Shown here in pieces: positions 71 to 24,977 of a stretch of 39,996 nt of DNA. A program made the translations under genes and the position numbers. This DNA is from Candidatus Pacearchaeota archaeon (GTDB lineage Archaea > Nanobdellota > Nanobdellia > Pacearchaeales > GW2011-AR1). The DNA lies in the NCBI GenBank assembly GCA_023144035.1, contig JAGLGM010000006.1, forward strand, positions 1-39,996, written 5' to 3'. Every line of letters begins with the position of its first letter. Within the stretch, counting starts at the first letter, position 1. The notes under the pieces are model-generated. The model saw nothing but the letters and a program-made list of their open reading frames with translations, did not search any database and had not been told where the DNA came from.

Positions 71-92
71 ACTCCCTCGGCGTGGAAAATTT
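71..92 (+). repeat. Dispersed intergenic element, copy 1
   Basis: Holds the core CCCTCGGCGTGG (74-85) followed by AT-rich sequence. It lies between the Cys-rich protein tail and the AbrB-like gene. The left half seen in other copies is reduced here. A TATA-like box (tttaaaag, about 110-117) for the next gene follows some 25 bases downstream. Confidence 0.55.
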
Positions 93-138
93 TAAATAAA
101 TCAAAACATTTAAAAGTAGGAAATTCTTACTTTCTTAC

Positions 139-348
139 ATGGAAATAACAAAAATAAGTTCAAAAGGACAAATAGTAATTCCTAGCAAAATAAGAACAGA
201 ACTAAAAATAAATGATCATTCTTTACTTGCACTTGAAAAAGTAGATAATGTTGTTATAATTAAGAAAATAGAAGATGAATTATTTAATAAGATAAAAAAA
301 AGTTTAGAAGATGTGAAATACGGAAGATTAAAAGAGTGGAAAAAGTGA
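139..348 (+). CDS. AbrB/MazE/SpoVT-family antitoxin-like DNA-binding protein
   Basis: A 69-residue protein with the swapped-hairpin AbrB signature near the N-terminus (ISSKGQIVIPSKIRTEL, residues 6-22), then a short beta segment and a charged helical tail (residues 45-69). Proteins like this bind their own promoter as dimers and neutralise a partner toxin through the C-terminal tail. A TATA-like box centred near 114 is 25 bases before the ATG, which fits a leaderless message. The TGA stop at 346-348 abuts, with no gap, the stop of a RelE-like gene on the other strand. That toxin is the likely partner, but tail-to-tail order is unusual for type II pairs. The family call is strong; the pairing is inference. 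Confidence 0.85.
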   Translation: MEITKISSKGQIVIPSKIRTELKINDHSLLALEKVDNVVIIKKIEDELFNKIKKSLEDVKYGRLKEWKK

Positions 349-654
349 TTACAATTTTTTAATGTATTCTTCATAATTATTTAATTCCAAAAGAATTTTG
401 TTTATTGTATTTTGTTGCATTTTTTTATTGCTTATTCCAACAGCTAAAACAATTAATTGAGTTTTATAAATAAGGAAATATAATCTTTTGTTTCCAAATT
501 TCTTCTCTCTAAAATATTTTCTTCCTAAAGGTTTTCCAACAACCTCTCCTTTCTTTTTTAATTTGTGCATTATTTTTTCTATTCTTTTTTTATCTGAATT
601 ATCAAGCTTTAGAAAATCATTATCAAACTCTTTTGTTGTGAATAATCTAAACAT
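349..654 (-). CDS. RelE/ParE-family toxin-like protein
   Basis: A 101-residue basic protein. It opens with FTTKEFDNDFLKL and a Lys-rich helix pair (KKRIEKIMHKLKKKGE), then G-rich strands (GKPLGRKYFREKKFGNKRLYF) and LIVLAVGISNKK, the usual RelE/ParE order of two helices followed by a sheet. Length matches the family. RelE toxins cut mRNA on the ribosome and ParE toxins block gyrase; the sequence does not decide between them. It converges with the AbrB-like gene, with the two stop codons directly adjacent. The two genes therefore cannot share a promoter, so any co-regulation would need antisense or trans control. Confidence 0.75.
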   Translation of the reverse strand: MFRLFTTKEFDNDFLKLDNSDKKRIEKIMHKLKKKGEVVGKPLGRKYFREKKFGNKRLYFLIYKTQLIVLAVGISNKKMQQNTINKILLELNNYEEYIKKL

Positions 655-711
655 ATAATAAAAAATCTTTAAGCTCTTAAATAATTTTGTTTCTCTAATA
701 AATTTCTAACT

Positions 712-766
712 GAGACACTTTTATACCTTGCTCGGCGTTTGGGCGTTGAAAAGATAATTTTATATA
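712..766 (+). repeat. Dispersed intergenic element, copy 2, with TATA box
   Basis: The left module agacacttttatacctt is followed by the core CTCGGCGTTTGGGCG (731-745) and then an AT tail ending in a TATA box (ttttatata, 758-766). Bases 713-738 match 7950-7975 at 24 of 26 positions. The TATA box sits about 26 bases before the ATG at 788, so the element and that promoter are contiguous. Confidence 0.7.
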
Positions 767-787
767 CAATTGTGTTTTAATATAAAT

Positions 788-2350
788 ATGAAAAAGTGGG
801 TGGTAATTGGGATATTATTAGTCTTTATTCTTTCTATTAATTTTGTAAGTGCTGAATCTAATGAAATTAACGAAACAGAAACTACTAACGAGGTAGAGGT
901 TGAAGAGTGCGCAACAAGTATAAGTATAAACTTTAATCAAGATGCTTATCGTGAAGGAGATTTTTTTGAAGTAACAATTGAGATTTTTGATTCATCTGGA
1001 AATCATCTTCCTAATTATAATTTTTATACTCAAACATATGATAATATGTGGCATTCTGTTGATTCACAAAGCACAGATGTAGACGGGTATTTTAAATATA
1101 CTGGGATAGCAGAAAAGCCAGCTGGAGGAGTTACAAAAACTATATTTAAGGTTTATACAACAGAATTTGGTTCTTGTGATATTATTGAAGAAGTTGAAGA
1201 GGTTGGATTTATACCTGAAGAAGAAGCAGAGTCTGAACCAGAATCAACTCCAGTAACAGAAGAGTCTGAGGCAGTTCCTACAGTATGCGCAGCTAAAATA
1301 GATGTAAATTTTAATAAGGCTGTTTATGCTATTGGAGATGATGTAAAAATTACAATAGAGATTTTTGATTCAGCAGGAAATCATATTCCTAATTATGCTT
1401 TTTATGGTCAGATGTATGATGATAGATGGCATACTCCTGACTTGCAGAAAACAGATAATAAAGGATATTTTATTCATACTGGGATAGCAGAAAAGCCAGC
1501 TGGAGGAGTTACAGAAGTTAAGTTTAAAGTTTACACAAAAGAAATTGGTTCTTGTAAATCTATTGAAGATACAGCAGAAATTACTCTTGAGATATCAGAA
1601 CCAGTACCTTGTGGGATAGGAAATTGCGTTCCTGAAGAAGAGGAAAAAGAGCCAGAAGAAATTCCAGATGAAAAAGTTTTCTATATTTGTACTGGCTGTG
1701 AATTAGAAGATAAATGTTATCCAATGGGATATAGAAAAAAAGGAAGATATTGCTCAGAAAATAATGAATTTATAGATCAATTACAAGCAGAAGCTTGTGA
1801 TAATAATTTTGAATGTAAAAGTAATTTTTGTGTTTCTGGAGAATGTATAAGTGAAGGTTTAATGAAGAAAATTATTAATTGGTTTAAGAAATTATTTGGT
1901 GCTGAACCAAAACCCCCTGAACTTAAGCAATGTTCTGAATTACTTATAGAAAAAAATATAGGGGATTATAAATATAATCAAACTTTATATGGTTTTAAAG
2001 AAGCACAAGTTCCAGTTTATTCAGAAGATGGTGAACAAAAAGAAATAGTAAAGTGCTGTGCAGTACAATATTTATATCAAGATGGGAAAGAAAACATGGG
2101 AATGGTTTGCGAATTTGATAGTAAGGAAGATGTAGAAAATTCAATGAGTTGGATTTTGATTAAAAATACTCGTCTAACTTTAGGTGAATATAAAGGAGAA
2201 AACGTGTTAAACGACCAAGATAAAGTAGTGGCTTGGACAAGTAATAATTATATTATTGCAACTGGGGCTAAGGGAGAAGGTATTGTGTTAGTAGAAGAAG
2301 ATATAGCTGGTGCTTATCTTGAAAAATATCCTAATGACTTAGAAATATAG
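788..2350 (+). CDS. Secreted protein with two Ig-like repeats, Cys-rich segment and WFKKLFG motif
   Basis: I chose the ATG at 788 because it begins a clear signal peptide (MKKWVVIGILLVFILSINFVSA) and lies 26 bases after a TATA box; an upstream in-frame TTG is less likely. The mature protein has two homologous beta-sandwich-like repeats of about 95 residues, each with Cys at both ends and the motif TGIAEKPAGGVT. Acidic Glu/Pro linkers separate them. A Cys-rich segment follows (CTGCELEDKC to CVSGEC), then INWFKKLFG (about residues 363-371), then a C-terminal domain of about 150 residues that I do not recognise. It probably acts outside the membrane. A 36-base stretch is identical in the two repeats (1100-1135 and 1478-1513), so they have duplicated or converted recently. 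Confidence 0.8.
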   Translation: MKKWVVIGILLVFILSINFVSAESNEINETETTNEVEVEECATSISINFNQDAYREGDFFEVTIEIFDSSGNHLPNYNFYTQTYDNMWHSVDSQSTDVDGYFKYTGIAEKPAGGVTKTIFKVYTTEFGSCDIIEEVEEVGFIPEEEAESEPESTPVTEESEAVPTVCAAKIDVNFNKAVYAIGDDVKITIEIFDSAGNHIPNYAFYGQMYDDRWHTPDLQKTDNKGYFIHTGIAEKPAGGVTEVKFKVYTKEIGSCKSIEDTAEITLEISEPVPCGIGNCVPEEEEKEPEEIPDEKVFYICTGCELEDKCYPMGYRKKGRYCSENNEFIDQLQAEACDNNFECKSNFCVSGECISEGLMKKIINWFKKLFGAEPKPPELKQCSELLIEKNIGDYKYNQTLYGFKEAQVPVYSEDGEQKEIVKCCAVQYLYQDGKENMGMVCEFDSKEDVENSMSWILIKNTRLTLGEYKGENVLNDQDKVVAWTSNNYIIATGAKGEGIVLVEEDIAGAYLEKYPNDLEI

Positions 2351-2364
2351 TTCTTGGCGTGTAA
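2351..2364 (+). repeat. Possible truncated dispersed element, copy 3
   Basis: TTCTTGGCGTGT directly after the stop codon matches the first half of the element core (CTYGGYGTG). The right half and flanking modules are missing, so this is a weak member. Confidence 0.3.
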
Positions 2365-2434: not shown

Positions 2435-2779
2435 ATGAAAAAAATAATAATTTTTAGTTTGATAGCAATTTCAGTTATTTTGATTGGGACTTTAGGATAT
2501 TTATCTTATTCAGATTTTGAAGAACATGAACATGGTGATGAACATTCAGTTGAAATTGAGGGAAAAGAAGTGAAGGATTTGACTGTGCAACAAGTTGCAG
2601 ATTTATGGGAAATTAACTCTGAAATACTTTTATTTAAAATAGTAAATGAATTTGAATTGGAAGTAAGTTATACTACAAATACTGTTTTAGATGTTATACG
2701 AGATGAATATGCATTTTCACCAGCATTAATAAAAGATATGGCAGAAGAAATAAAACAAGAGAATTTACAAAATGAATAA
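2435..2779 (+). CDS. Membrane-anchored small protein, partner of DUF4405-like protein
   Basis: 114 residues with an N-terminal membrane anchor or signal (KKIIIFSLIAISVILIGTLGYLSY), a His/acid patch (EEHEHGDEH, residues 29-37) that could bind metal, and a predicted helical domain (VQQVADLWEINSEILLFKIV). A TATA box (tttataaa, about 2404-2411) lies 27 bases before the ATG. The last bases overlap the next gene by 8, so the two are probably translated together. I do not recognise a named family. Its neighbour suggests a role in membrane redox or metal handling, which is inference only. Confidence 0.7.
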   Translation: MKKIIIFSLIAISVILIGTLGYLSYSDFEEHEHGDEHSVEIEGKEVKDLTVQQVADLWEINSEILLFKIVNEFELEVSYTTNTVLDVIRDEYAFSPALIKDMAEEIKQENLQNE

Positions 2780-3032
2780 TTTAAAATTAAATTATTGGAT
2801 AAATCTTGGATTGATAATTTCTTTTTTTACTTGCTTTTTTACAGGTTTAATTAAATGGCCTGGGATAATAAAAATAATAGGAATTTCTACATATAAAGTA
2901 TTATCTTTTAGAAATATTTCATTATGGCATGATTGGAGTGGTCTTATTATGGGATTACTTGTTTTGATTCATTTAGTTTTGAATTGGAACTGGATGGTTG
3001 CTGTTACAAAGAAATTTTTTAGAAAAACTTAA
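2772..3032 (+). CDS. DUF4405-like membrane protein (candidate b-type heme protein)
   Basis: 86 residues with two long hydrophobic helices. The second region carries SLWHDWSGLIMGLLVLIHLV: two His in a helix context with the order W-H-x-W-S-G then I-H. This is the pattern of DUF4405 (flavinylation-associated cytochrome) proteins, where such His ligate heme. It overlaps the membrane-anchored gene before it by 8 bases, which makes a two-gene unit. The protein is short and may need a partner to complete a four-helix bundle. No flavin transferase gene is near. Confidence 0.65.
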   Translation: MNNLKLNYWINLGLIISFFTCFFTGLIKWPGIIKIIGISTYKVLSFRNISLWHDWSGLIMGLLVLIHLVLNWNWMVAVTKKFFRKT

Positions 3033-3265
3033 AAAATTTATAAGCTATCTTTGGATTAATTTTTTACTAGTTTTATGGTGTTAGGTGTTGTTTCTTGTGA
3101 GAATATTTTAAAAAATTAAAAACCAAAAACAATGTTCTTAGTCAAAGAATTTATGAGAGAGGAATGTAAAGAATTGTTTAATCTTTATCCAGATAAGAAA
3201 TAAACTCCCCAGTCATCTCAGTGTGAACATATTCTTTTTTGTCTATTTAATGACAATACATACTC

Positions 3266-3381: not shown

Positions 3382-4812
3382 ATGAAAACATTTGAAGAAT
3401 TAGGATTAAATGAAAAAATATTGGGAACTTTGTTGAATCTTGGAATTAAAATTCCTTCTGAGATTCAGGAAAAAGCAATCCCTTTAGTATTAGCTGGACG
3501 TGATGTTATTGGAGGTTCTGCAACTGGTTCTGGAAAAACTTTAGCTTTTGCTTCGGTAATAATAGAGAAAGTTCAAAAAAATAAAGGAGTACAAGCACTG
3601 GTTTTAACTCCTACAAGAGAGTTAGCAGATCAAGTAGCAAATTCAATTTGGAAACTTTCTGAACATAAGGACCTAAATATTCTTCCTATTTATGGGGGAA
3701 CTAATATGGGCACTCAGATTAGAGAAATTCCTCGTACAGATATTATTGTTGGTACACCTGGGAGAATTTTGGATCATTTACAAGGAGGAACTTTAGATTT
3801 AAGAGGAATTAAGTTTCTTGTTTTAGATGAAGTTGATAGAATGTTTGATATGGGTTTTCAAAAAGATGTTGAGAAAATTATTAATGTATGTCCGAAAAAA
3901 AGACAGACTATGCTTTTTTCAGCTACAGTATCTTCAGAGATAGATTATCTTGCTGAAAAACATACTCAAGATGCAATAAATGTCTCTGTTAAGTCTCATA
4001 TAGATCATTCTCAACTTAAACAAGTTTATTACAATGTTCTAGATGGTTTAAAATTTTCCTTGTTAGCACATTTATTGAGGAAAGAAGAAAGTGATTTAGT
4101 TATGGTGTTTTGTGGAACAAGACGTAATGTTGATTTTGTTGCAGATAATTTAAATTCTCTTGGAATTAAAGTTAAAGCTATTCATGGGGGGATGGTTCAA
4201 AATAAGAGAAATAGAGTTCTGAAGGAGTTTAATTCAACTAAAGGAGTAAATGTTTTAGTGTGTACAGACGTTGCTGCTAGAGGACTTGATATTCCTGGAG
4301 TTAGCCATGTTTATAATTATGATTTACCTAAAACGAGTGTTGATTATATTCATAGAATTGGTAGAACTGCTAGAGCTGGAAGAGATGGTATTGCAATAAA
4401 TGTTTTATGTAGTAAAGATTATGAAAATTTTGGGAATATCTTAAAAGATGAAAACTTAAAAATTGTAGAAGTCCCAACTCCGTGGTTTGAAAAGGTTAAA
4501 ATGAATCTTCCTACTAAAAGAGATTATAGGGGACGTGGAAATAGAGGAGGAAATAATTTTAGTAGACTTAGAAGAAATGATAGTTTTAGAAGAAGTGATG
4601 GTCCTAGAAATAATTCTGATAGAAAGCCTAGAAATAATGATGGCCCTAGAAGGAATGATAGTCCTAGAAGAGAAAATAATTCTGAAAAAAGTTATGGAAA
4701 CAGAAGAGGTAGGCAAGATAATCCTAGAAGAAGTGATGGTCCTAGAAGAGATATCAAAAAAAGAGGGAGAAACTTTAGTAGAGGAAATAATCAGCGAAGT
4801 AGAAGAAGATAA
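3382..4812 (+). CDS. DEAD-box ATP-dependent RNA helicase with basic Arg/Asn/Gly tail
   Basis: 476 residues with the full DEAD-box order: Q motif (FEELGLNEKIL to PSEIQ), SATGSGKT (46-53), PTREL (77-81), VLDEVD (motif II, 147-152), SAT (180-182), then ARGLDIPGV and HRIGRTARAGR in the second RecA domain. It should unwind short RNA duplexes, for example in ribosome assembly or at low temperature. Motif II reads DEVD rather than DEAD; the catalytic Asp and Glu remain. From about residue 385 the protein is a low-complexity basic tail of repeated RRNDGPRR-like units, likely a nonspecific RNA-binding arm. Very Arg-rich coding here creates false reading frames on both strands. Family confidence is high; the specific substrate is unknown. 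Confidence 0.95.
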   Translation: MKTFEELGLNEKILGTLLNLGIKIPSEIQEKAIPLVLAGRDVIGGSATGSGKTLAFASVIIEKVQKNKGVQALVLTPTRELADQVANSIWKLSEHKDLNILPIYGGTNMGTQIREIPRTDIIVGTPGRILDHLQGGTLDLRGIKFLVLDEVDRMFDMGFQKDVEKIINVCPKKRQTMLFSATVSSEIDYLAEKHTQDAINVSVKSHIDHSQLKQVYYNVLDGLKFSLLAHLLRKEESDLVMVFCGTRRNVDFVADNLNSLGIKVKAIHGGMVQNKRNRVLKEFNSTKGVNVLVCTDVAARGLDIPGVSHVYNYDLPKTSVDYIHRIGRTARAGRDGIAINVLCSKDYENFGNILKDENLKIVEVPTPWFEKVKMNLPTKRDYRGRGNRGGNNFSRLRRNDSFRRSDGPRNNSDRKPRNNDGPRRNDSPRRENNSEKSYGNRRGRQDNPRRSDGPRRDIKKRGRNFSRGNNQRSRRR

Positions 4813-4841: not shown

Positions 4842-4888
4842 CTTGATAAAGTCCTGGTGTGGGCGCCTTGAATTTTATAAATTCTTTT
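4842..4888 (+). repeat. Dispersed intergenic element, copy 4 (long form with palindrome)
   Basis: The module tcttgataaagtc leads into the core CTGGTGTGGGCGCC and the palindrome GAATTT-TAT-AAATTC (4870-4884). Bases 4856-4888 are identical over 33 bases to 7971-8003. The left part matches 7293-7315 at 22 of 23 positions. It lies between two convergent genes and provides the stop codon of the MFS gene (TAA at 4875-4877, - strand). Confidence 0.8.
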
Positions 4889-6068
4889 CAATTATTCTTT
4901 TAGTTTTAGATGAAAGGAAGAACATAATTAGCATGAATAAAGCAAATAATAAAAATATGTATTTAAAAGGTAAAATAATTAAAAGTGAGGATGCTAAAAT
5001 TTTCCCAAGAAAGTTATTCACATCTTCTTTAGTCTTATAAGGCCCATAATATCTAAGCTCTTCTTTTTTCTTCAAAATATCAAAGAAATAAGCTTCTGTT
5101 GTGGGCTCTAACATAGCCATTCCAATACTTGCTAAAGTTAATAGTATCATAATAATGTAAATATTTCCAATAAAAAAACATAAGAATGAAAAAACAGCGA
5201 CAATCAAAAAACCCATTTGAAATATTTTTTTAAATCCTTTTTTACCAACTAGTTTTGAAAATTTATATTCAAATAATACTAAAGGAACTGCTACTGCAAA
5301 TAAGAAATAACCTATCCAAGATACGCTAAGTCCTTGTCTAATAATAAAAAGGGGCACAAAAAGATATATTAAAACCCACCATAAATTGACTCCTCCACCA
5401 ATAAAATAAGCAAGTCTTTTTTCTTTATCTTTGAAAAAACCAAAAAGATTCTTAATCAAATTTTTATCTATCTTTTTCTTAATATTCTTATCTTTTATTT
5501 TAAAAAATCTAAACAATAAGAAAGCTATAATCACGAATATTGCTGATAATACAAATACTAATCTTATTCCAAATTGACTTGCAATATATCCTGCAATTAA
5601 TGGTCCTAAAACCCAAGCTAAATTTAAGAAAGTAAAAATAACCCCTTCATTTTTTGAAAGTTGTGTTTTTGAAGATTTATCTTTAATTATAATTCCAAAA
5701 CTTGTTACTCTGAAAGTTGTTATAATTGTGATAAGAGATGCTAAAATTACAAAAATATAGAATTTAGTGTTTATTGCAAATAAAATATAACCTAATGCTA
5801 AAGTTAGTAAAGACCAATAATATATTTTAGACTTATCTTGTTTTTCTATTATTGGAATAAAGAAAAAATAAGAAAGAAATGAGATAAGGGTAAGAAAAGC
5901 AGATATAAACCCTACCAAAACTATACTATTTACAAAACTATCCATATAGACTGCCCAAATAGTATTAATATATGCAAAAGCTAAAGATGCAATAAATCCT
6001 ACAATAGCAAGTTTTGTTATTTTTGTTAAATCCCCTTTTTGTTTTTGTCCTATAATTTCTCCAGTCAT
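4875..6068 (-). CDS. MFS (major facilitator superfamily) transporter
   Basis: 397 residues, almost entirely hydrophobic, with about 12 membrane segments. A long charged loop in the middle (DKNIKKKIDKNLIKNLFGFFKDKEKR, around residues 194-219) divides two six-helix halves, as in the MFS fold. FGIRLVFVLSAIFVIIAFLLF shows the usual mid-protein pattern. Substrate cannot be read from the sequence. The last residues (KNL then stop) lie inside a dispersed element, which also ends the unrelated gene at 7990. A TATA-like tract (ttaaatttaaatat) lies upstream on the - strand in the region shared with the Fic gene. Confidence 0.85.
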   Translation of the reverse strand: MTGEIIGQKQKGDLTKITKLAIVGFIASLAFAYINTIWAVYMDSFVNSIVLVGFISAFLTLISFLSYFFFIPIIEKQDKSKIYYWSLLTLALGYILFAINTKFYIFVILASLITIITTFRVTSFGIIIKDKSSKTQLSKNEGVIFTFLNLAWVLGPLIAGYIASQFGIRLVFVLSAIFVIIAFLLFRFFKIKDKNIKKKIDKNLIKNLFGFFKDKEKRLAYFIGGGVNLWWVLIYLFVPLFIIRQGLSVSWIGYFLFAVAVPLVLFEYKFSKLVGKKGFKKIFQMGFLIVAVFSFLCFFIGNIYIIMILLTLASIGMAMLEPTTEAYFFDILKKKEELRYYGPYKTKEDVNNFLGKILASSLLIILPFKYIFLLFALFMLIMFFLSSKTKRIIEKNL

Positions 6069-6103: not shown

Positions 6104-6131
6104 TACTCGGCGTAGGTGTTTACCCCTTAAA
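6104..6131 (+). repeat. Dispersed intergenic element, copy 5
   Basis: Core CTCGGCGTAGGTGTT followed by taccccttaaag, in the region between the divergent MFS and Fic genes. No palindrome follows. It shows that the element is not tied to gene ends only. Confidence 0.6.
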
Positions 6132-6188: not shown

Positions 6189-7190
6189 ATGGTTTATATA
6201 TACAAAAAGATAATCGGAAAGAAGCTTTATTATTACTTAAGAGCATCTATGAAAAAAGATAAAAAAGTAGTTGTAAAAGATTTAGCATATTTAGGTAGTT
6301 CTCTAAAAGATGTTAGAAAAAATTTAGATAAACTCACTAAATATAAAAAAGAAATAAGAAATACTTACAAAACAATTAAGACTTTTCTTGAATCAAATTA
6401 TTATTTAGAAAAAGCTAGCAAATTAAAATTAAAAAAAGATGAATATTTAGATGAGAAACTTGTTGAAACAGAAGCTTGTAAAGAGCATTATATAAAAAAA
6501 TTTAGTAAAGAACATGAATTAACAAAAAAAGATTTTTTTAAATATTTCTTAATAGAATTTGCATATAATACAACATCTATTGAAGGAAACACAATTACTT
6601 TAAAAGAAGCTAGAAATTTACTTGAAGAAGGATTGACTCCTAAGAATAGAACTTTAAGGGAAATTTTTGATTTACAAAACACAGAAAAAGTCTTTTTTGA
6701 GATTTTAAACTCAAAAAAAGATATTGATAAAGATTTTATTGTAAATCTTCATAAAAAATTAATAGAAAATATTGATGATAGAATAGGATTTAGAAGAACA
6801 GATGTTAGAGTTTTAAAGTCTAGATTTAAAGCTAGTCCTGCTAAGTATGTAATAACAGATATTAATTTATTATTAAAATGGTACAATGATAATAAAAAGA
6901 AGCTTCATCCATTAGTTTTAGCAGCTTTATTTCATCATAAGTTTGAGAAAATCCATCCTTTTTATGATGGAAATGGGAGAACAGGACGAATGTTATTAAA
7001 TTATATTTTAATTAGAAATAATTATCCTCCTTTAATAATCAGGAAAAAGTTTAGAAAAGAATATTTAAATTCATTAGGAAAAGCAGATGAAAGTCCTCTC
7101 AAAGAAACAAAAAAAGAAGATTATTTTGAGTTAGTTCAATATGTAGCTAATGAATTGATTACTAATTATTGGAATCTCTTTTTAGTGTAA
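6189..7190 (+). CDS. Fic-family protein (probable AMPylase) with inhibitory motif
   Basis: I chose the ATG at 6189 (333 residues): a TATA box (ttataaa, about 6163-6169) lies some 24 bases upstream, and MVYIYKKIIGKKLYYYL matches the start of the second Fic gene (MRVIKREKGKKEYYYL). The catalytic motif HPFYDGNGRTGR (about 256-267) is intact. An upstream TTSIEGN carries the (S/T)xxxE(G/N) inhibitory motif, so the enzyme is expected to be self-inhibited. Fic enzymes usually transfer AMP or another nucleotide part to a protein Ser, Thr or Tyr. No obvious antitoxin gene is adjacent. The substrate is unknown. Confidence 0.9.
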   Translation: MVYIYKKIIGKKLYYYLRASMKKDKKVVVKDLAYLGSSLKDVRKNLDKLTKYKKEIRNTYKTIKTFLESNYYLEKASKLKLKKDEYLDEKLVETEACKEHYIKKFSKEHELTKKDFFKYFLIEFAYNTTSIEGNTITLKEARNLLEEGLTPKNRTLREIFDLQNTEKVFFEILNSKKDIDKDFIVNLHKKLIENIDDRIGFRRTDVRVLKSRFKASPAKYVITDINLLLKWYNDNKKKLHPLVLAALFHHKFEKIHPFYDGNGRTGRMLLNYILIRNNYPPLIIRKKFRKEYLNSLGKADESPLKETKKEDYFELVQYVANELITNYWNLFLV

Positions 7191-7290: not shown

Positions 7291-7342
7291 ATTCTTGATA
7301 AAGTCCCGGTGTGGGGTGTTAAGGGAGATAATTTTATATAAT
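7291..7342 (+). repeat. Dispersed intergenic element, copy 6, with TATA box
   Basis: Module attcttgataaagtc, core CCGGTGTGGGGTGTT, then an AT tail with the TATA box tttatataata (about 7332-7342), 25 bases before the HD-domain gene. The left module is shared with copy 4, while the tail resembles copy 2 (agataattttatata), so the copies look mosaic. Confidence 0.75.
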
Positions 7343-7949: not shown

Positions 7950-8003
7950 AGACACTTTTATACCTTCCTCGGTGTGGGCGCCTTGAATTTTATAAATTCT
8001 TTT
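7950..8003 (+). repeat. Dispersed intergenic element, copy 7 (most complete form)
   Basis: Left module agacacttttatacctt, core CTCGGTGTGGGCGCC (7969-7983) and palindrome GAATTT-TAT-AAATTC (7985-7999). Its left half matches copy 2 and its right 33 bases are identical to copy 4. It lies between convergent genes and contains the stop codon of the - strand gene (7990-7992). Confidence 0.8.
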
Positions 8004-8437: not shown

Positions 8438-8438
8438 T

Positions 8439-17389: not shown

Positions 17390-17489
17390 CTAAAATTACT
17401 TAAACACCAAGATAGAATGTTGCTGTGCTTATTTATTAGTTAAGTTTATAAATTATTTTTAATATAGTATAGTTATAAAAGAGGTAAGA

Positions 17490-18476
17490 ATGAATTTCAA
17501 ATTAATATTTACAATTATGTTTTCTGTATTTTTAATTGGGGGAGTGAATGCTATTTTTTGTGTAACAGCAGAGATTTCAGATATTACTCCAAGTTCAATT
17601 GGAATTGGAGAGGAATTTACAGTAGGTATACAAATTGAAAATTGTGGGACTGAAACTCCTGCGAATATTTATTTTGAATTATTAAATCCTCCAACAGATA
17701 TTACAATTAAAGAACCTTTAATTTTAGAAATTCCTGAATTAAATTATGGAAATAGCGAGAGATTTCTTACATATCATATGAGAACTAATAATGATGCTCT
17801 TCCTGGAACACATGTAATTAAAACAAGACTTTCTTATGGAGATGTTGTAAGAGATTATAATATAACTTTTGATGTTATAGGTGATGGAGCAGAATTAAGT
17901 ATTGCTTCTCTTAAAACTAATCCTATATTACCAAGAGAAGGGGAAACAGTTGAATTAACTTTGAGAATTGAAAATACTGGTGACGGCACTGCAAAATCAG
18001 TAGAAGTATTTGTTGACCATCCTTTTCAAGGATTAAAACAATCTTTTATTGGTGCACTTGATGCAGATGAAGATGGTCCAGCAGTTTTAACTTTTATTGT
18101 AGATGATGATGGAGAATTTGAATTTCCAATTACTGTTTCATATTATGATGATTTTGGTAAAGATGAAATAAAAACAAATGTGAATCTTAATGTATTAAAA
18201 AAAGAATATAATATCGGAGCAATTATTTTTACAATTTTAATAATTGCTATTTTTGCATGGGGAATTTATTATTTTAGAAAAACAAAAAAAGCAAAAGACA
18301 GAACAATTCATCAATTGTTGCAAGGAGAAAATTTTGATAGTGAATTAAAAGAAACTCCTAAAAAACCTCTTAAGAAATCTCTTAGAAAATTTTCTGAAAC
18401 AAAAACAGAAAGAGAAAAAAAAGAAAGAAGAAGGGAAGAATTCAAAAGAGAAATATTAGAGAAGTATAAGAAATAA
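17490..18476 (+). CDS. Membrane-anchored extracellular Ig-like (CARDB/COG1361-type) protein
   Basis: 328 residues: signal peptide (NFKLIFTIMFSVFLIGGVNA), two beta-sandwich domains with ITPSSIGIGEEFTVGIQIENCG and LPREGETVELTLRIENTGDG (the usual CARDB-like 'tells more about paired strands' pattern), a membrane helix near residues 243-262, and a basic cytoplasmic tail. A Shine-Dalgarno (gaggt) precedes the ATG. The stop is one base before the FtsX-like permease start, so this is the first gene of a three-gene transporter operon. It is the likely outside subunit, meeting substrate or the cell envelope before the permease. Confidence 0.82.
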   Translation: MNFKLIFTIMFSVFLIGGVNAIFCVTAEISDITPSSIGIGEEFTVGIQIENCGTETPANIYFELLNPPTDITIKEPLILEIPELNYGNSERFLTYHMRTNNDALPGTHVIKTRLSYGDVVRDYNITFDVIGDGAELSIASLKTNPILPREGETVELTLRIENTGDGTAKSVEVFVDHPFQGLKQSFIGALDADEDGPAVLTFIVDDDGEFEFPITVSYYDDFGKDEIKTNVNLNVLKKEYNIGAIIFTILIIAIFAWGIYYFRKTKKAKDRTIHQLLQGENFDSELKETPKKPLKKSLRKFSETKTEREKKERRREEFKREILEKYKK

Positions 18477-18477
18477 C

Positions 18478-19683
18478 ATGCTTAAAGATATTAATGTTGG
18501 ATTTGTTAGTGCACTAAGTTCTATAAAAAGGGGAAATAAAAAAACTTCGTTTTTTATTATAGTTGTTCTTGGACTTATTTTTATGAATCTTGTATTTTTA
18601 CCTGCTTTAATAAGTGGTATGATGAATCTTTTTGTAGGACTTGTTCAAGAATATCAGTATGGAAATATTGTTATTGAACCTTTAGAAGACAATAGTTATA
18701 TTAATAATGCAGATCATGTTTTGAAAAAAGTTAGAAGTCTTAGTGAAGTTACAGGGGTGGCAAAAAGATTAGAAGCAGGAGCTTCCTTAAAACACAATCA
18801 AAAGATGGTCGGAGCCACGATCAAAGGGCTTGTCCCCAGAGACGAGGAAGATGTTTCTTCATATCCTTATATTGTAAGTGAGGGTGAATTTTTAGGAGAA
18901 CTTTCACGAGATGAAATAATGATTGGAGCTATGTTAGTTGAAGGAAATTTTGGTTCTGAAATATATGATAATTTAGGAGATGTTAAAGTAGGGTCATTAG
19001 TTAATGTGACATATGTTAATGGGGTTGAAAAAACATACAAAGTTAAAGGAATTCATTCAGGTACTTTTGAGTTAACTGATTTAGGTGCATTAGTCCACTA
19101 TAAAGAATTAGAAGATGTTCTTGGTTTAGATGGAGAAGCGTCAAGCATAGTTGTAAGAATAGAAAATGAAGGTGAAGAGGCAGAAGTTAAGAAAAAAATT
19201 ATAGATTTAGGTGTAAAAGAAGAAATTTCTACTTGGCAGGAAAAATCAGAATCTCTAATAAAACAAGCACTGCAAACAATGGGTATGATGGATATTATGT
19301 CAAAGATAGTAAGTTTAATTGTTGGGGCTGCCCTTATATTTATTATTATTTATATTAATACTTTAAATAGAAAAAGAGAAATAGGTATTCTTAAAGCAGT
19401 AGGGATTACTCCTAATTCAATTAGGATTTCATATGTTTTTATTAGTTTATTTTATGTTGTTTTAGGTATTTTCCTTGGATTAATAATGTTTATTTCATTA
19501 GCATTGTATTTACAGGCTAACCCAATTATGTTTTATGAAACAATGGAAATTTCCCCAGCAATAGATGCAGGAATGTTAATTAAGAGTATTTTAACTATGG
19601 CTGGTATGTCTATTATTGCAGGTTTTATACCTGCATGGTTTGTAACAAGAAAAAATATCTTGGAGGCAATTTGGGGGAGATGA
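18478..19683 (+). CDS. FtsX/MacB-like ABC transporter permease
   Basis: 401 residues. An N-terminal membrane helix (KKTSFFIIVVLGLIFMNLVFL) is followed by a large outside domain (about residues 40-265), then three C-terminal helices. The last part has INTLNRKREIGILKAVGI, the conserved FtsX-family coupling segment. MacB-type proteins do not carry substrate across by a classic pore; they pull or push on the outside domain using ATP from the partner. The gene sits between the Ig-like membrane protein and the ATPase gene, overlapping the latter by 4 bases. Confidence 0.92.
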   Translation: MLKDINVGFVSALSSIKRGNKKTSFFIIVVLGLIFMNLVFLPALISGMMNLFVGLVQEYQYGNIVIEPLEDNSYINNADHVLKKVRSLSEVTGVAKRLEAGASLKHNQKMVGATIKGLVPRDEEDVSSYPYIVSEGEFLGELSRDEIMIGAMLVEGNFGSEIYDNLGDVKVGSLVNVTYVNGVEKTYKVKGIHSGTFELTDLGALVHYKELEDVLGLDGEASSIVVRIENEGEEAEVKKKIIDLGVKEEISTWQEKSESLIKQALQTMGMMDIMSKIVSLIVGAALIFIIIYINTLNRKREIGILKAVGITPNSIRISYVFISLFYVVLGIFLGLIMFISLALYLQANPIMFYETMEISPAIDAGMLIKSILTMAGMSIIAGFIPAWFVTRKNILEAIWGR

Positions 19684-20381
19684 TGGAAAAAGAAAAAACA
19701 ATAATAAAAGTAAAAGATATGACAAGACATTATAATACAAATGGAATTGTTGTAAAAGCTCTAAATAATGCTTCGTTTGAAATTAAAAAAGGAGAGTTTA
19801 TTGCAATTATGGGAGCAAGTGGAAGTGGAAAAACAACTATGTTAAGAATTCTTGGATTACTTGATAAACCAACTAAAGGACAATATACAATTAATAATCT
19901 TGATGTAGTTAATTTACCAGAAGAAGAAAGAAATTATTATAGATTAACACAATTAGGATATGTTTTCCAAGATTATGCATTAATTAATGAAATGACTGCT
20001 TCAGAAAATGTTCATATTTTATCACTTATGGAAGGAAAATCAAAAAAAGAATCTCTTCTTAATGCTAAGGAAGCTTTAGAAAATGTAGGGCTTGGAGATA
20101 AGTTGGAGAGAGTTCCAAATCAACTTTCTGGAGGAGAAAAACAAAGAGTTGCTATTGCTAGAGCTATTGCAAAAAAGCCAAGAATATTATTTGCAGATGA
20201 ACCTTGTGCAAATCTTGATACTCATACTTCTGGACAAGTTTTAGAAGTTTTAAAAAATCTTAATAAAAAATTTAACCAAACAATTGTAATGGTTACTCAT
20301 GAATTATGGCACACTAAATATGCTTCAAGAGTTATTCAACTAAAAGATGGTTTTATTGTTAGTGATAAAAGAAGGAGATGA
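19680..20381 (+). CDS. ABC transporter ATP-binding protein (LolD/MacB type)
   Basis: 233 residues with Walker A GASGSGKTT, Q-loop in GYVFQDYAL, signature LSGGEKQRVAIARA, Walker B ILFADEPCANLD and the switch His in VTHE. It powers the FtsX-like permease before it. Two ATGs at 19680 and 19683 are possible; the second shares its A with the permease TGA stop (ATGATGG), and either gives translational coupling. A longer frame from 19635 overlaps the permease gene more and starts with unrelated residues. The three-gene set matches archaeal MacB-like export or envelope-tension machines. Confidence 0.95.
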   Translation: MMEKEKTIIKVKDMTRHYNTNGIVVKALNNASFEIKKGEFIAIMGASGSGKTTMLRILGLLDKPTKGQYTINNLDVVNLPEEERNYYRLTQLGYVFQDYALINEMTASENVHILSLMEGKSKKESLLNAKEALENVGLGDKLERVPNQLSGGEKQRVAIARAIAKKPRILFADEPCANLDTHTSGQVLEVLKNLNKKFNQTIVMVTHELWHTKYASRVIQLKDGFIVSDKRRR

Positions 20382-20412
20382 TGCTCGGAGCGGGCGCATT
20401 GTTCTTTAAAAG
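20381..20412 (+). repeat. Dispersed intergenic element, copy 9
   Basis: Core CTCGGAGCGGGCGCA with tail ttgttctttaaaag, directly after the ABC operon. It is followed within 20 bases by the TATA box of the repeat-protein gene (tttataaat, about 20430-20438). The left module is missing. Confidence 0.55.
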
Positions 20413-20460: not shown

Positions 20461-21582
20461 ATGAGATTAAAAACTATTGATGAAAAAATAATTACTGAAA
20501 GATTATCAAAATTTGAAGGAAGACATCTTAGGCTTTTAAATAGGTTAGCAACTAAAAGTTTAAAGGAGAAAATTAGTTCTAAAAATGCTTTAAAGAATGT
20601 TAATAATGAACTTAAAAAATATTTTGAATCTGAGAATAGATTAATAAAAGGTGTAGCTTCTTCTATTTATTCAAAATTAAATGGAACTATAAAATACACT
20701 AGATTTAATGGAGCTAATTTGGGGCTAGTTGTGGAAAAAGATGATGTTAACACAAATTATAGAATAAAAGATCTAAATTCATTTATGGAAAATTCTGGAA
20801 TTTACAATTCAGTTATCTTCAGAAATCAAAAAATAAATAATTCAATTGTGGCATATGAGGCTACAATAAATAATTCAATGGTTGCGCATAATTCTGCAAT
20901 AAAGAATAATTCAATGGTTGCAAATAATGCTATAATAGATAATTCAATGGTTGCAAATAATGCTATAATAGATAATTCAATGGTTGCAAATAATGCTATA
21001 ATAGATAATTCAATGGTTGCAAATAATGCTACAATGAAGAATAATTCAATGGTTGCAAATAATTCTGCAATAAAGAATAATTCAATGGTTGCAAATGATT
21101 CTGCAATAAAGAATAATTCAAAGGTTGCATATGAGGCTACAATAAATAATTCAATGGTTGCAAATGAGGCTACAATAGATAGTTCAAAGGTTGCAAATAA
21201 TTCTACAATAGATAGTTCAAAGGTTGCAAATAATTCTACAATAGATAGTTCAAAGGTTGCATATAATGCTACAATAAATAATTCAATGGTTGCAAATGAG
21301 GCTACAATAAATAATTCAGAGGTTGCAAATAATTCTACAATAGATAGTTCAAATGTTGCACATAGTTCTACAATAAATAATTCAGAGGTTGCAAAGGATG
21401 CTACAATAAAGGATTCAAATGTTGCATATGAGGCTACAATAGATAATTCAATGGTTGCATATAATACTACAATAGATGATTCAAATGTTGCAGAGGGTGC
21501 TAAGGTTAGAAATTCTTATATTGGAGAAGGTGCAACAAAAGATTCTAAATCAAGAATTGCAAGAAACATAACTTATTTTTAG
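20461..21582 (+). CDS. Protein with twenty tandem 11-12-residue repeats (possible beta-solenoid)
   Basis: 373 residues. A TATA box 27 bases upstream supports the ATG at 20461. The first 70 residues are helical and basic (EKIITERLSKFEGRHLRLLNR). Residues 126-349 are twenty tandem repeats with consensus NNSxVAxNATI (16 of 11 and 4 of 12 residues), then RNSYIGEGA and a short end. The regular S-x-V-A and T-I positions suggest one beta strand pair per coil, as in narrow beta-solenoids. No signal peptide or membrane segment is visible, so it may be cytoplasmic. I do not recognise the family. Units vary at fixed positions (M, K, E or N after S), which may form a binding face. Confidence 0.8.
   Translation: MRLKTIDEKIITERLSKFEGRHLRLLNRLATKSLKEKISSKNALKNVNNELKKYFESENRLIKGVASSIYSKLNGTIKYTRFNGANLGLVVEKDDVNTNYRIKDLNSFMENSGIYNSVIFRNQKINNSIVAYEATINNSMVAHNSAIKNNSMVANNAIIDNSMVANNAIIDNSMVANNAIIDNSMVANNATMKNNSMVANNSAIKNNSMVANDSAIKNNSKVAYEATINNSMVANEATIDSSKVANNSTIDSSKVANNSTIDSSKVAYNATINNSMVANEATINNSEVANNSTIDSSNVAHSSTINNSEVAKDATIKDSNVAYEATIDNSMVAYNTTIDDSNVAEGAKVRNSYIGEGATKDSKSRIARNITYF
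20836..21507 (+). repeat. 33-36 bp tandem DNA repeat inside a coding gene
   Basis: Twenty units fill exactly 672 bases. Three successive units around 20938-21036 are identical 33-mers (aattcaatggttgcaaataa...). The 36-base units differ by an added AAG codon. Such near-identity should let the array expand or shrink by slippage or recombination in steps that keep the frame. Confidence 0.9.
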
Positions 21583-21611: not shown

Positions 21612-21656
21612 AAAACATTTTTATACCTCTCTTGGCGTGGATGTTCTCCCATTACA
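21612..21656 (+). repeat. Dispersed intergenic element, copy 10
   Basis: Left module aaaacatttttatacctct, core CTTGGCGTGGATGTT, tail ctcccattac. It lies between the repeat-protein gene and the second Fic gene, whose TATA box (atatttaaata, about 21674-21684) follows. Confidence 0.7.
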
Positions 21657-21705: not shown

Positions 21706-22557
21706 ATGAGAGTTATTAAAAGGGAAAAAGGAAAAAAAGAGTATTACTATTTACAACATTCATTTAGAAAAGGAGAAAAAGTAATTACAAGAGAAAAATA
21801 TCTTGGATTAAAGATTCCTAAAAATATTGATGAAATAAAAGGAGAGTTTAGTAGAAAGTTAAAAAAAGATCTTTATAAAAAGTTAGAAAGAATAAAAACA
21901 CATTTTCAGAAAGAATGGAAAAAACTCCCAAAATCAATTCAAGAAAAAGAAAAAGAAGAGATTTCTATAGCTTTTACATATAATTCAAATGCTCTTGAAG
22001 GTTCAACAATTACTCTGCATGAAGTAAGAGAAATAATTCAAGACAAAATTGCTCCAAATAAGCCTATTAGAGATATAAAAGAAACAGAAATGCATAATAA
22101 AGTTCTTTTAGAAATTTTAAAAGAAAAAGAAAAAATTAGTAATAAGTTAATATTAGGGTGGCATAATGAAATTTTTGGAGAAACTAAATCAGACATGGCA
22201 GGAAAATATAGAAATTATCTTGTAAGAGTTGGACAATATGTTGCTCCTCATTGGAATACAATTAGATTAACTATGAACCAAATCATAAATTTTACTAATA
22301 AATCAAATTTAAATCCTGTTGAATTAGCTGCAAGAGTTCATTATAGGTTTGAGATTATCCATCCTTTTGGAGATGGCAATGGCAGAATTGGAAGATTATT
22401 AATGAATCATATTCTTTGGCATGCAGGTTATCCAATGCTTATTATTGAATACAAAAAAAGAAAGTCATATTATGCTGCATTCCCAAAAGGTCAGGAAGCT
22501 TTTGTGGATTATTTTTTAAGAAGATATCTTGCTGTTCATAAAAAAAGGTTGAAATAA
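21706..22557 (+). CDS. Fic-family protein (probable AMPylase) with inhibitory motif
   Basis: 283 residues. The catalytic motif HPFGDGNGRIGR (219-230) is complete and an upstream YNSNALEGSTITL carries the SxxxEG inhibitory motif. The N-terminus (MRVIKREKGKKEYYYLQHS) matches the Fic gene at 6189, so the two are paralogues of one subfamily with a short N-terminal domain. A TATA box about 27 bases upstream predicts a leaderless message. No DNA-binding domain is fused, unlike the third Fic gene at 31070. The target is unknown. Confidence 0.92.
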   Translation: MRVIKREKGKKEYYYLQHSFRKGEKVITREKYLGLKIPKNIDEIKGEFSRKLKKDLYKKLERIKTHFQKEWKKLPKSIQEKEKEEISIAFTYNSNALEGSTITLHEVREIIQDKIAPNKPIRDIKETEMHNKVLLEILKEKEKISNKLILGWHNEIFGETKSDMAGKYRNYLVRVGQYVAPHWNTIRLTMNQIINFTNKSNLNPVELAARVHYRFEIIHPFGDGNGRIGRLLMNHILWHAGYPMLIIEYKKRKSYYAAFPKGQEAFVDYFLRRYLAVHKKRLK

Positions 22558-22568: not shown

Positions 22569-22610
22569 CAATCATCTCGGCGTGGGAGTTAATTCTTAAA
22601 GACTCTTTTA
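22569..22610 (+). repeat. Dispersed intergenic element, copy 11
   Basis: Core CTCGGCGTGGGAGTT then aattcttaaagactctttta, between the convergent Fic and PHP genes. Its right half overlaps the end of the - strand PHP gene, including that stop codon (22589-22591), as copies 4 and 7 do for their neighbours. Confidence 0.65.
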
Positions 22611-23464
22611 ATCTCTTCTAATTCTTTTTGAGTTATCCCAAAGTCTCCGGGCATGATTGATTTAAGATTGGCGTATGTTTTTAAGGGAAAGTGGCTATCA
22701 GATCCTCCAGAAATAGGAATTTGCATTTTTTTTAGTTTCTTTCTAATTCCTTTTTCTAATTCTTTATTTGATTCAGTTCCACCATAACCATTTTCATGAT
22801 ATGCATAAGACGCTTCTATTGCATCAATTCCGTGTTTATGAAACAACTTAAAATATTCTTCTCTTGTTGATTCTGGAGTCATAAACGGATGTGCCCAAAT
22901 AGCAAAGCCTCCAGCATCATGAATTAATTTGATTATTTTTATTGGCGAAAGTTTAGAAATTCCTTGTCCATCTTTAACATAGTATGTTTTATTTTGATAA
23001 TGTTTTCTTGCCTCTGCCCAGGAAGGAAATAGTTTGAGTTTTTCTGCAAGATATTTTAATACAAATAACTTTTGAGGATTTTTTTTATTATAAAATTTTT
23101 CGATTTTATTATAACTTATATCAATTCCTTCTTTTTTTAATCCATCAACTAATCTTTTTGATGCAGAAATATAATCTTTTTTCATCTTATTGCGTCTCTT
23201 TTCAATAAATTCTCGATCTTTCTTTTTTATTTTCATGTTATATCCAATAATGTGTGCTTTATCACAAGAAAATTCAATTCCCAAAGCAAGCTGCAAACCT
23301 TTTTTCTTAGCATATTTATATAAACTTTCATCAGGAAAGGTATCATGGTCACAAATACCAAGTCCCTTAACTCCATTTTTTATAGCGAGATCTATTAATT
23401 TTTTCCCGCTTATTGCTCCATCTGGTGAAAGAGAAGTATGATTGTGTAAATCATAAGGTTTCAT
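22589..23464 (-). CDS. PHP-domain phosphoesterase (second copy, standalone)
   Basis: 291 residues with PHP motifs DLHNHTSLSPDG (H7, H9), GICDHDTF, GIEFSCD, HIIGYN, IWAHPFM and SGGSDSHF. The same metal-binding set as the gene at 14511 is present, with differences such as CDHD for TDHD and GGSDSH for GGTDFH. Substrates of this group include nucleotides and RNA ends. It is transcribed alone from the region shared with the membrane protein gene at 23570. Its C-terminus falls in a dispersed element. Confidence 0.9.
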   Translation of the reverse strand: MKPYDLHNHTSLSPDGAISGKKLIDLAIKNGVKGLGICDHDTFPDESLYKYAKKKGLQLALGIEFSCDKAHIIGYNMKIKKKDREFIEKRRNKMKKDYISASKRLVDGLKKEGIDISYNKIEKFYNKKNPQKLFVLKYLAEKLKLFPSWAEARKHYQNKTYYVKDGQGISKLSPIKIIKLIHDAGGFAIWAHPFMTPESTREEYFKLFHKHGIDAIEASYAYHENGYGGTESNKELEKGIRKKLKKMQIPISGGSDSHFPLKTYANLKSIMPGDFGITQKELEEIKRVFKN

Positions 23465-23503: not shown

Positions 23504-23550
23504 TTCTTTTATACCTCCCTTGGCGTGGACGTTTATTTAATAAACTCTTA
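23504..23550 (+). repeat. Dispersed intergenic element, copy 12, with palindrome
   Basis: Left module ttcttttatacctcc, core CTTGGCGTGGACGTT and the palindrome GTTTATT-T-AATAAAC (23531-23545), which is also the likely TATA box of the next gene. The same palindrome occurs at 24950-24964 in copy 13. Confidence 0.72.
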
Positions 23551-23569: not shown

Positions 23570-24145
23570 ATGGTCAAAAAGAATTATAAAAAAATTATTT
23601 TATTTTCAGCATTAATTATATTTTTAATTGCTTTAATTACTCTTCTTTTTTTTGTAAGTCCTGAAGAAATAGTAAATAAACTTGGAGTAAGAAATGCATA
23701 TTTTCTTGTATTTCTTGTTTCATTTTTTGGAGGGTTTTCTGCTGGAGGGTCTTTAACTTTTATTAGTCTTTTAATTACTCTTGCTATTGGAGGTATGAAC
23801 CCATTATATTTAGGGTTAGTGTCAGGAACAAGTTTGGCAATAGGAGATATGATTATGTTTTATGTTTTTTCTAAAGGACGAGAATTAGTTAAAAATAAAT
23901 GGGACAAAAGAATAAATAAAGTTGCTAATGTATTTAAGAAAAGAAAATGGTTGCAAAAAATGATTCCTTTTTTTGCTTATATTTATATTGGTTTTATTCC
24001 TTTACCAAATGATATTTTAATTCTTTTTCTTGCAGCAATAGAATATCCTGCTAAAAAAGTAAATGCATCAATAATATTAGGTGATTTAACTTTTGCTTTA
24101 ATGGTTGCTATTTTAGCATCTAAAGGTATTATGTTCTTTGTGTAG
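23570..24145 (+). CDS. VTT/DedA-like membrane protein (tentative)
   Basis: 191 residues with about five membrane segments. GGFSAGGSLTFISLLITLAIGG and IPLPNDILILFLAA recall the VTT (SNARE-associated, DedA) fold, in which a Pro-rich re-entrant loop enters the membrane; some members move lipids across the bilayer. The usual charged residues of DedA motifs are not all visible, so the call is tentative. The gene diverges from the PHP gene and is read from a promoter inside a dispersed element. Confidence 0.6.
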   Translation: MVKKNYKKIILFSALIIFLIALITLLFFVSPEEIVNKLGVRNAYFLVFLVSFFGGFSAGGSLTFISLLITLAIGGMNPLYLGLVSGTSLAIGDMIMFYVFSKGRELVKNKWDKRINKVANVFKKRKWLQKMIPFFAYIYIGFIPLPNDILILFLAAIEYPAKKVNASIILGDLTFALMVAILASKGIMFFV

Positions 24146-24200
24146 ATTTTAATCAAACTTCTATAATAAAGTTAATTTTATAAATATTGATAAACATTGA

Positions 24201-24260
24201 TTTATATATAAAAATTAATGATATAATCATTTAATATATTAAAAATAAATTAAAAGGAGG
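24201..24260 (+). promoter_or_regulatory. Strong leadered promoter and Shine-Dalgarno site for the gene at 24270
   Basis: A TATA box (tttatatataaa, 24201-24212), a perfect palindrome AATGAT-ATA-ATCATT (24217-24231) near the expected start of transcription, and AAGGAGG (24254-24260) nine bases before the ATG. A leader of roughly 40 bases with a full Shine-Dalgarno contrasts with the leaderless promoters around it and suggests high expression. The palindrome could be an operator. Confidence 0.6.
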
Positions 24261-24269
24261 TATAAAAAT

Positions 24270-24863
24270 ATGAATAACAAAATATTAATTACACTTATGT
24301 TTGTATTACTTGCTTCTATGACTTTTGTTTTAGCTGCAAATGGTGAACAAGATGTAATTCCTCTTGGAACTGAAGATCAAGTTCAAGAAAGAGTTCAAGT
24401 TCAAGATGGATCACACTTAGGTGAAAATGGACAAATGTTTCAAGTACAAATGCAAACAAATAATAGATTTCAACTTGAATCTGAAGGTGTTTCTGTTGAA
24501 TGTGAATGTGAAATGACTCAGGAAAAAACTGAAAGTAAAACACAACTTTTTACTAAAATGTCTAATGGAGTTGAAGCAGAAATTAAAGTAATGCCAAATA
24601 CTGCATCAGAAACAGCTTTAGAAAGACTTAAGTTACAAACTTGTTCAGAAGAAAACGAATGTCAAATTGAACTTAAGGAAGTTGGTGCAGGTGATAAAGC
24701 TCAAATGGCTTATGAACTTCAAACTCAGAGAGAAGCAAAAGTATTAGGATTATTTAAAACTCAATTAAGAGTAACTGCTCAAATAGATGCTGAAACTGGT
24801 GAAGTTATAAAAGTTAGAAAGCAATGGTGGGCGTTTCTAGCTTCAGAACCAGCAGAAGAATAA
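24270..24863 (+). CDS. Abundant-type secreted hypothetical protein
   Basis: 197 residues: signal peptide (NNKILITLMFVLLASMTFVLA), a Gln/Val-rich region (EDQVQERVQVQ), a Cys pair in VECECEM and another in CSEENEC, and a C-terminal part with KVLGLFKTQLRVTAQID and KVRKQWWAFLA. The start is fixed by a full Shine-Dalgarno (AAGGAGG) and signal peptide. I do not recognise a named family. The strong initiation signals suggest an abundant envelope protein. T-rich sequence after the stop (24866-24895) would end transcription. Confidence 0.75.
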   Translation: MNNKILITLMFVLLASMTFVLAANGEQDVIPLGTEDQVQERVQVQDGSHLGENGQMFQVQMQTNNRFQLESEGVSVECECEMTQEKTESKTQLFTKMSNGVEAEIKVMPNTASETALERLKLQTCSEENECQIELKEVGAGDKAQMAYELQTQREAKVLGLFKTQLRVTAQIDAETGEVIKVRKQWWAFLASEPAEE

Positions 24864-24865
24864 AT

Positions 24866-24895
24866 CTTTATTTTTATTTTATTTATTTTTATTCT
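24866..24895 (+). terminator. T-rich terminator after the secreted protein gene
   Basis: Several runs of T interrupted by single A (ctttatttttattttattt...) directly follow the TAA stop. Archaeal transcription ends at such T-runs without needing a hairpin. Confidence 0.55.
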
Positions 24896-24926
24896 AATTA
24901 TTCCACCTTATTTATTCTTTAATTAA

Positions 24927-24977
24927 AAGGTAAGGGAGATTGTGTGAGGGTTTATTTAATAAACTATTAATTCTTTA
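24927..24977 (+). repeat. Dispersed intergenic element, copy 13 (diverged core)
   Basis: aaggtaagggagattgTGTGAGGG followed by the palindrome GTTTATT-T-AATAAAC (24950-24964) and ctattaattcttt. Sixteen bases (gtttatttaataaact) equal those of copy 12. The core keeps only GTGTG-like sequence. The palindrome is the likely TATA box of the GTPase gene, 28 bases upstream of its ATG. Confidence 0.5.

Follow-up and report, generated by a model that had tools for sequence, protein, structure and literature searches.

Copies of the tRNA-Asp 3′ end mark proposed small gene cassettes in a chromosomal island of a Pacearchaeota archaeon

Introduction

Recurring tRNA 3′ ends have been described in additive flexible genomic islands (fGIs), such as the tRNA-Lys fGI-2 of Ca. 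Methylopumilus, with reported sizes from 330 bp to 42 kb (PMC10872708), and the tRNA cassettes of Ca. Actinomarinales (PMC7771536). Tycheposons, which were named from Prochlorococcus, are cargo elements of 4–200 kb with an XerD-type recombinase (PMC10872708). Tandem tRNA-integrated islands are known from Islander, which requires an integrase per island and a length of at least 2 kb and found 4 tandems of three or more in 3919 islands (PMC4383910), as well as from tandem integration in archaea (PMC8371274). Here we analyze a DNA stretch of 39,996 nucleotides ("the window") from a Candidatus Pacearchaeota archaeon (GCA_023144035.1, JAGLGM010000006.1), in which a short core, CTYGGYGTGGRYG, recurs between genes. 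The cores are, with high probability, attachment sites copied from the tRNA-Asp(GTC) 3′ end in the course of repeated site-specific integration behind that gene.

The locus resembles additive fGIs in its small streamlined genome, in its variable island behind a tRNA gene, and in its cassettes, which appear to have been added at the tRNA and are each closed by a directly repeated piece of that tRNA. Whereas those islands are bacterial, this host is a DPANN-type archaeon with a dozen or more cores and mostly one gene for each, and the core follows the host tRNA allele across genera. A small AT-rich genome, tRNA introns, and a thermosome gene are among the grounds for placing the host with the DPANN-type archaea. 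As in tandem tRNA islands, the tRNA is restored, displaced 3′ fragments of this one tRNA lie downstream in the same orientation as a tandem array, and the island contains a tyrosine recombinase, but the one-gene units would fail the Islander filters. Like tycheposons, the cargo is bordered by tRNA sequence and linked to a tyrosine recombinase; unlike them, the units are mostly 0.3–1.7 kb long, most carry no recombinase, and the recombinase belongs to a divergent family. The layout also recalls an integron, with a recombinase at one end and a row of one-gene cassettes sharing a site in a single orientation, but the site is a tRNA end instead of attC, no IntI was identified, several cassettes have their own promoters, and the cargo faces both ways. 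The type of system is known from bacteria, and we found no published version from DPANN-type archaea in the open-access literature.

Little is understood of gene acquisition in very small archaea that probably depend on hosts, and this array offers a readable record in which tRNA-Asp cores delimit acquired genes and so name the cargo (Fic, toxin-antitoxin-like, HD, PHP, transporters, and helicases). DPANN-type genomes could be scanned for cassettes using their own tRNA 3′ ends. If the proposed reading is true, streamlined genomes maintain a stock of exchangeable genes next to an essential tRNA. The array also shows that an integron-like arrangement can be built on another recombination site.

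Results and Discussion

A same-strand array of intergenic cores

The window comprises the whole of contig C12 in a genome of 776,525 bases and 15 contigs, which include contig C1. The 15-mer pattern CTYGGYGTGGRYGYY with up to 3 mismatches gave 12 matches versus 2.8 expected, and none of 100 shuffles reached 12. Eight of these matches were copies already listed in the original prediction, and the rest (24136 and 26416, as well as 28347 and 30437 on the minus strand) were at chance level. To avoid circularity, the 13-mer CTCGGCGTGGGCG from the tRNA-Asp of relatives, which is independent of the window, was used as a second query. At up to 3 mismatches it had nine copies on the plus strand before 24985, none on the minus strand, and none beyond 24985, while order-3 Markov simulations yielded an average of 0.18 and a maximum of 2. 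The predicted dozen or so non-random copies were thus recovered as ten strong cores (rows labeled tRNA-Asp core in Table 1) and four weak sites at 2352, 3218, 8420, and 24943, whose own scores are insufficient when taken singly; the last of these is the right-hand module of the 23519 site without a core. All ten strong cores are on the plus strand, and none of the 14 positions overlaps a gene although genes cover 91% of the stretch, so that the predicted placement also held.

The copies had been called a dispersed element, but a genome-wide search placed the matches in two clusters, at the start of C12 on the plus strand and at the start of C1 on the minus strand, both contig ends and both in the tRNA orientation. 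The intergenic, strand-biased copies of the window would suit a scattered element with a regulatory, RNA, or replication/segregation role, and a replication or segregation basis had indeed been suggested for the bias. However, the copies are confined to one island, the bias is simply the orientation of its tRNA-Asp gene, and the core sequence tracks tRNA-Asp alleles, which makes such an element extremely unlikely; a simple promoter or terminator role had rightly been judged not to explain the copies. An RNA element was rejected as a candidate: Rfam returned no match except tRNAs, and folds of single copies had no common structure.

The core is the 3′ end of tRNA-Asp

The core corresponds to the 3′ strand of the T-stem, the 3′ strand of the acceptor stem, and the discriminator of tRNA-Asp(GTC), because the copy at C1:12254 ends a full tRNA gene (...CCCGGGTTCGATTCCCGGCGTGGGCG, anticodon GTC), the intact tRNA-Asp at C1:12242-12313. 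Along the path from this gene to the start of C1 and on from the start of C12, every copy has the tRNA orientation. Strict 16-base tRNA ends were also tried as a query and missed copies, because sharing begins only at the 3′ strand of the T-stem.

The tRNA-Asp 3′ ends vary among species, with 28 alleles in 82 loci, and the 13-mer of each genome's own tRNA-Asp was therefore counted within 10 kb of the gene in 82 relatives. At up to 1 mismatch, ten own-allele copies were found downstream on the tRNA strand versus none on the other strand, none upstream on either strand, and none with foreign alleles. At up to 2 mismatches, the downstream counts were 19 versus 1, with 2 and 1 upstream and 1.9 and 0.5 for foreign alleles. 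Since the excess is specific to the own allele, downstream, and on the tRNA strand, the core follows the host tRNA. Same-orientation repeats downstream of tRNA-Asp occur within single contigs in relatives G091, G140, G156, and G089, and here across the gap between C1 and C12. Many cores in the window read CTCGG or CTTGG, while the genome's own tRNA-Asp reads CCCGG, and the core at 7968 agrees with the tRNA-Asp 3′ end of relative G013 at all 13 bp. This is as expected if units arrived from elsewhere, although decay could mimic part of the pattern.

Other tRNA-end duplications were observed in the same genome. The tRNA-Asp 5′ end also has a 13-bp duplicate (GCCTACGTGGTCT), located on the other side of the gene at a distance of 68 bp upstream (C1:12382-12314, locus L025). 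A second small array at C1:93763-95856 (L026) consists of an intron-bearing tRNA, a bare 13-bp copy of the 3′ end 1.2 kb further on, and a longer copy of the 3′ half at 2 kb, and its left flank resembles that of the copy at C1:1026. Furthermore, tRNA 3′ ends are duplicated just 44–130 bp downstream at C1:261382, C1:127119, and C9:45047, as well as at L126 and L141 in relatives, and these are possibly integration scars devoid of cargo.

A variable island between tRNA-Asp and a GTPase gene

In relatives, the gene for the MMR_HSR1 GTPase, which starts at 24985 in the window, comes after tRNA-Asp. Genomes G085 and G130 have tRNA-Asp directly followed by the GTPase gene and thus represent the empty site, while the insert measures about 1.3 kb in G119, about 3 kb in G068 and G091, about 5 kb in G069, 10–11 kb in G003 and G160, and 27 kb in G158. 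G108 and G016 have same-strand core arrays of their own upstream of the GTPase gene. Given this gene order, positions 1 to 24.9 kb of the window appear to form the far section of an island that begins at tRNA-Asp and spans roughly 37 kb or more, and the same synteny supports a join of C1 with C12. The array runs off the end of both contigs, as would be seen where repeats interrupt an assembly, and a gene at the C1 end resembles the tail with which the window begins. The last 15 kb, where no copies had been predicted, had none after 24985 because this part, with its genes for the GTPase, an AIR-synthase-like protein, and a thermosome, lies beyond the island. With one genome available per species, none of the genes of the window island were matched in the island of the congener G002.

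Proposed cassettes, an exact boundary at Fic1, and flanking modules

The intervals between cores mostly hold one or two intact genes, which face either strand. Other genera have homologues of eleven island genes downstream of their tRNA-Asp, in different orders and orientations. The clearest case is the first Fic gene (Fic1), whose promoter contains a conserved inverted repeat, TTTACCCT...AGGGTAA. Of 21 Fic1 orthologues, 7 have a tRNA-Asp 3′ end (up to 3 mismatches allowed) that terminates 0–3 bp before this operator, compared with 0.3% at random places, and the alleles at these boundaries differ (CTCGGTCAGGGCG, CCCGGCACGGGCG, CTCGGCGTGGGCG, and TTCGGCGCGGGCG). The Fic gene is located immediately behind an intact tRNA-Asp in G140 and G141, and it is enclosed by two cores in G156. 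Two cores also enclose a GIY-YIG gene in G016 and, in G108, a Fic gene that is a 40% homologue of the second Fic gene of the window (21706-22557). In G031 and G103, a homologue of the 125-aa gene is located downstream of tRNA-Asp, and in G111 one immediately follows tRNA-Glu, but this gene is weaker evidence than Fic1 because most of its homologues have no nearby cores.

Modules flanking the cores had also been predicted, and those on the left are real. In the 445 kb of the genome that were searched, ACACTTTTATACC occurs twice, both times at cores, and TTGATAAAGTC three times, two of them at cores. Of 17 cores, 6, some of which share ancestry, have the motif [TA]ATACCT in the preceding 40 bp, against a background of 0.7%, and GAGACACTTTTAT closes unrelated cargo in this genome and in G156, where it stands at two cassette ends. 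The predicted TATA box on the right is better read as the promoter of the cassette gene: six of the nine plus-strand cassettes examined have a TATA-like box 29–31 bp before the ATG, and the right-hand modules thus often seem to be cassette promoters. At 731, 4853, 7305, and 7968, each of two left modules is paired once with each of two right modules, the outcome that crossing-over at the cores would give. RecA-type homologous recombination between the tRNA-end repeats, shuffling or adding segments with no site-specific recombinase, could have produced them, but cores of 13 bp that are often mismatched are short for this process and a recombinase abutting a tRNA gene is at hand, so that we consider this route improbable.

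The main rival explanation is that full-size integrative elements of plasmid or virus type, each with its own integrase, were inserted serially at tRNA-Asp and then lost most of their genes by deletion, so that one cargo gene stayed with each attachment-site copy, with no mobility of single genes. Larger recombinase-bearing elements do insert behind tRNA-Asp (C1 and G031), G108 keeps inverted-repeat arms like those of an intact element, decay is evident in many cores, and the absence of an integrase from archaeal integrated elements is usually put down to its loss after integration (PMC8371274). Such a history does not readily account for intact genes fitted between cores with few truncations, for a Fic1 segment whose left boundary is exactly the same across several genera with differing tRNA-Asp alleles, or for a left module that ends unrelated cargo in two genera. 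We therefore regard it as rather unlikely. Our preferred reading, which we hold with slightly better than even confidence, is that single genes moved as units, in trans.

An integron array, in which the cores would be attC sites recombined by IntI as folded single strands, came under suspicion from the one-gene spacing and from cores ending in GTT. The layout of one-gene units, a single site orientation, and a recombinase at one end matches, and integrons have been reported in archaea including Nanoarchaeota (PMC9668308). However, the paired motifs RYYYAAC and GTTRRRY occurred together at none of 16 sites, the cores vary with the host tRNA-Asp allele, and the cargo orientation is mixed. The attC reading was rejected for lack of the paired motifs, and an integron proper is extremely unlikely.

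A divergent tyrosine recombinase next to tRNA-Asp

A gene for a 405-aa protein (P0001) starts 57 bp behind tRNA-Asp on C1. Its AlphaFold model (mean predicted local distance difference test score 81.5, predicted template modeling score 0.52) matched structures of Cre, XerA, and the integron integrase IntI, with E-values down to 2e-6. No IntI-specific family match was obtained in Pfam or NCBIfam. The RLGH motif and the tyrosine are kept, and the HxxR motif reads KDLR. Homologues were present in 16 of 200 genomes of the order, and most of the well-preserved ones start beside a tRNA gene (Asp, Glu, or Gln-like), some at an interrupted tRNA; no relatives were found in plasmids and viral contigs. 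P0001 and its homologues are a divergent tyrosine recombinase family tied to tRNA genes, and P0001 is the best candidate for the integration enzyme. The genome has two further recombinases detected by Pfam, and none of the three lies inside a one-gene cassette.

Two observations on relatives concern the same family. At L112 and L113, recombinase relatives are located beside tRNA genes whose anticodon loop appears to be interrupted, which would be another point of integration. At L062, a 78% identical recombinase is accompanied by two CCCGGTCAGGGCG cores 80 bp apart on a contig filed under a Zixiibacteriota metagenome-assembled genome; this contig is probably archaeal and misbinned.

In the proposed mechanism, a unit would arrive as a circle with a 13-bp copy of the tRNA end, and a tyrosine recombinase would join it to tRNA-Asp. 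The incoming 13 bp would restore the tRNA 3′ end and displace the old end downstream. Repeated rounds would build an array in which all cores have the tRNA orientation and the cargo faces either way, and cores distant from the tRNA, being released from selection, would decay. Since most one- and two-gene units carry no recombinase, they would have been moved in trans, plausibly by P0001 or a relative. Site-specific integration at tRNA-Asp with attachment-site copies is well supported by its products. We give an even chance to the broader proposal of a DPANN-type integron-like system, in which the tRNA-Asp 3′ end is the shared site and single-gene cassettes are captured and mobilized in trans by a divergent tyrosine recombinase.

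Several points weigh against the explanation by serial integration at tRNA-Asp. The excised circle and the reaction are deduced from the integrated products. P0001 matched the Pfam Phage_integrase family weakly (E 0.004), and its first catalytic arginine is replaced by asparagine in nine of nine members, P0001 and eight homologues, within an invariant GEN motif. No terminal inverted repeats were found on one-gene segments, whereas the apparently intact element of G108 has them. The own-allele copies among the 82 relatives number 19 in total, and long arrays are therefore uncommon. The join of C1 and C12 is deduced from gene order and is not in the assembly. Finally, a 12-kb block at 8.4–20.4 kb has no cores; several of its genes have homologues downstream of tRNA-Asp in relatives.

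Features of the window

Table 1. Coordinates of cores, modules, and genes in the window
Position	Strand	Feature
76..88	+	tRNA-Asp core, left part only, CTCGGCGTGG
139..654		Cargo: MazE-like antitoxin (139-348 +, PF04014) and convergent 101-aa open reading frame (ORF; 349-654 -)
715..729	+	Left module ACACTTTTATACCTT, closes preceding cassette; also at 7952
731..747	+	tRNA-Asp core with 2-bp insertion, CTCGGCGTTTGGGCGTT
788..2350	+	Cargo: putative secreted protein of 520 aa; TATA-like box 29 bp upstream of ATG
2354..2362	+	Weak core, CTTGGCGTG only
2435..3032	+	Cargo: two small ORFs, 114 and 86 aa; same pair between tRNA-Asp and GTPase in G068
3217..3225	+	Core-like site CTCAGTGTG, very weak and by itself not significant
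3382..4812	+	Cargo: DEAD-box helicase
4843..4853	+	Left module TTGATAAAGTC; also at 7295
4853..4867	+	tRNA-Asp core CCTGGTGTGGGCG(CC)
4875..6068	-	Cargo: MFS transporter
6106..6120	+	tRNA-Asp core CTCGGCGTAGGTG(TT), abuts Fic operator TTTACCCC...AGGGTAA
6119..6157	+	Inverted-repeat operator at Fic cassette start; conserved across genera
6189..7190	+	Cargo: Fic family protein (Fic1)
7305..7321	+	tRNA-Asp core CCCGGTGTGGGGTGTT, 1-bp insertion
7362..7940	+	Cargo: HD-domain protein
7968..7982	+	tRNA-Asp core CTCGGTGTGGGCG(CC)
7990..8367	-	Cargo: 125-aa protein
8420..8434	+	Weak core-like site CAGCGTGCGGCGTT
8439..20381		Block without recognizable cores: helicase, SDF symporter, deaminase, PHP, kinase-like, CARDB, and FtsX/ABC genes
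20384..20398	+	tRNA-Asp core CTCGGAGCGGGCG
20461..21582	+	Cargo: hexapeptide-repeat protein
21631..21645	+	tRNA-Asp core CTTGGCGTGGATG(TT)
21706..22557	+	Cargo: second Fic protein
22576..22590	+	tRNA-Asp core CTCGGCGTGGGAG(TT)
22589..23464	-	Cargo: PHP-domain protein
23519..23533	+	tRNA-Asp core CTTGGCGTGGACG(TT)
23570..24863	+	Last island genes: 191-aa and 197-aa ORFs, no Pfam match
24950..24969	+	Right module GTTTATTTAATAAACT, common to 23519 site; no core; probable worn distal island end
24985..25827	+	Chromosomal backbone: MMR_HSR1 GTPase

Within the hexapeptide-repeat gene, at positions 20900-21500, a sequence (AATAAxxATTCAATGGTTGCA) is repeated many times in tandem with little variation. 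The minus strand has two tRNA genes that contain long introns, at 30654-30813 and 39837-39967, where the Rfam match extends over 131–160 bp.

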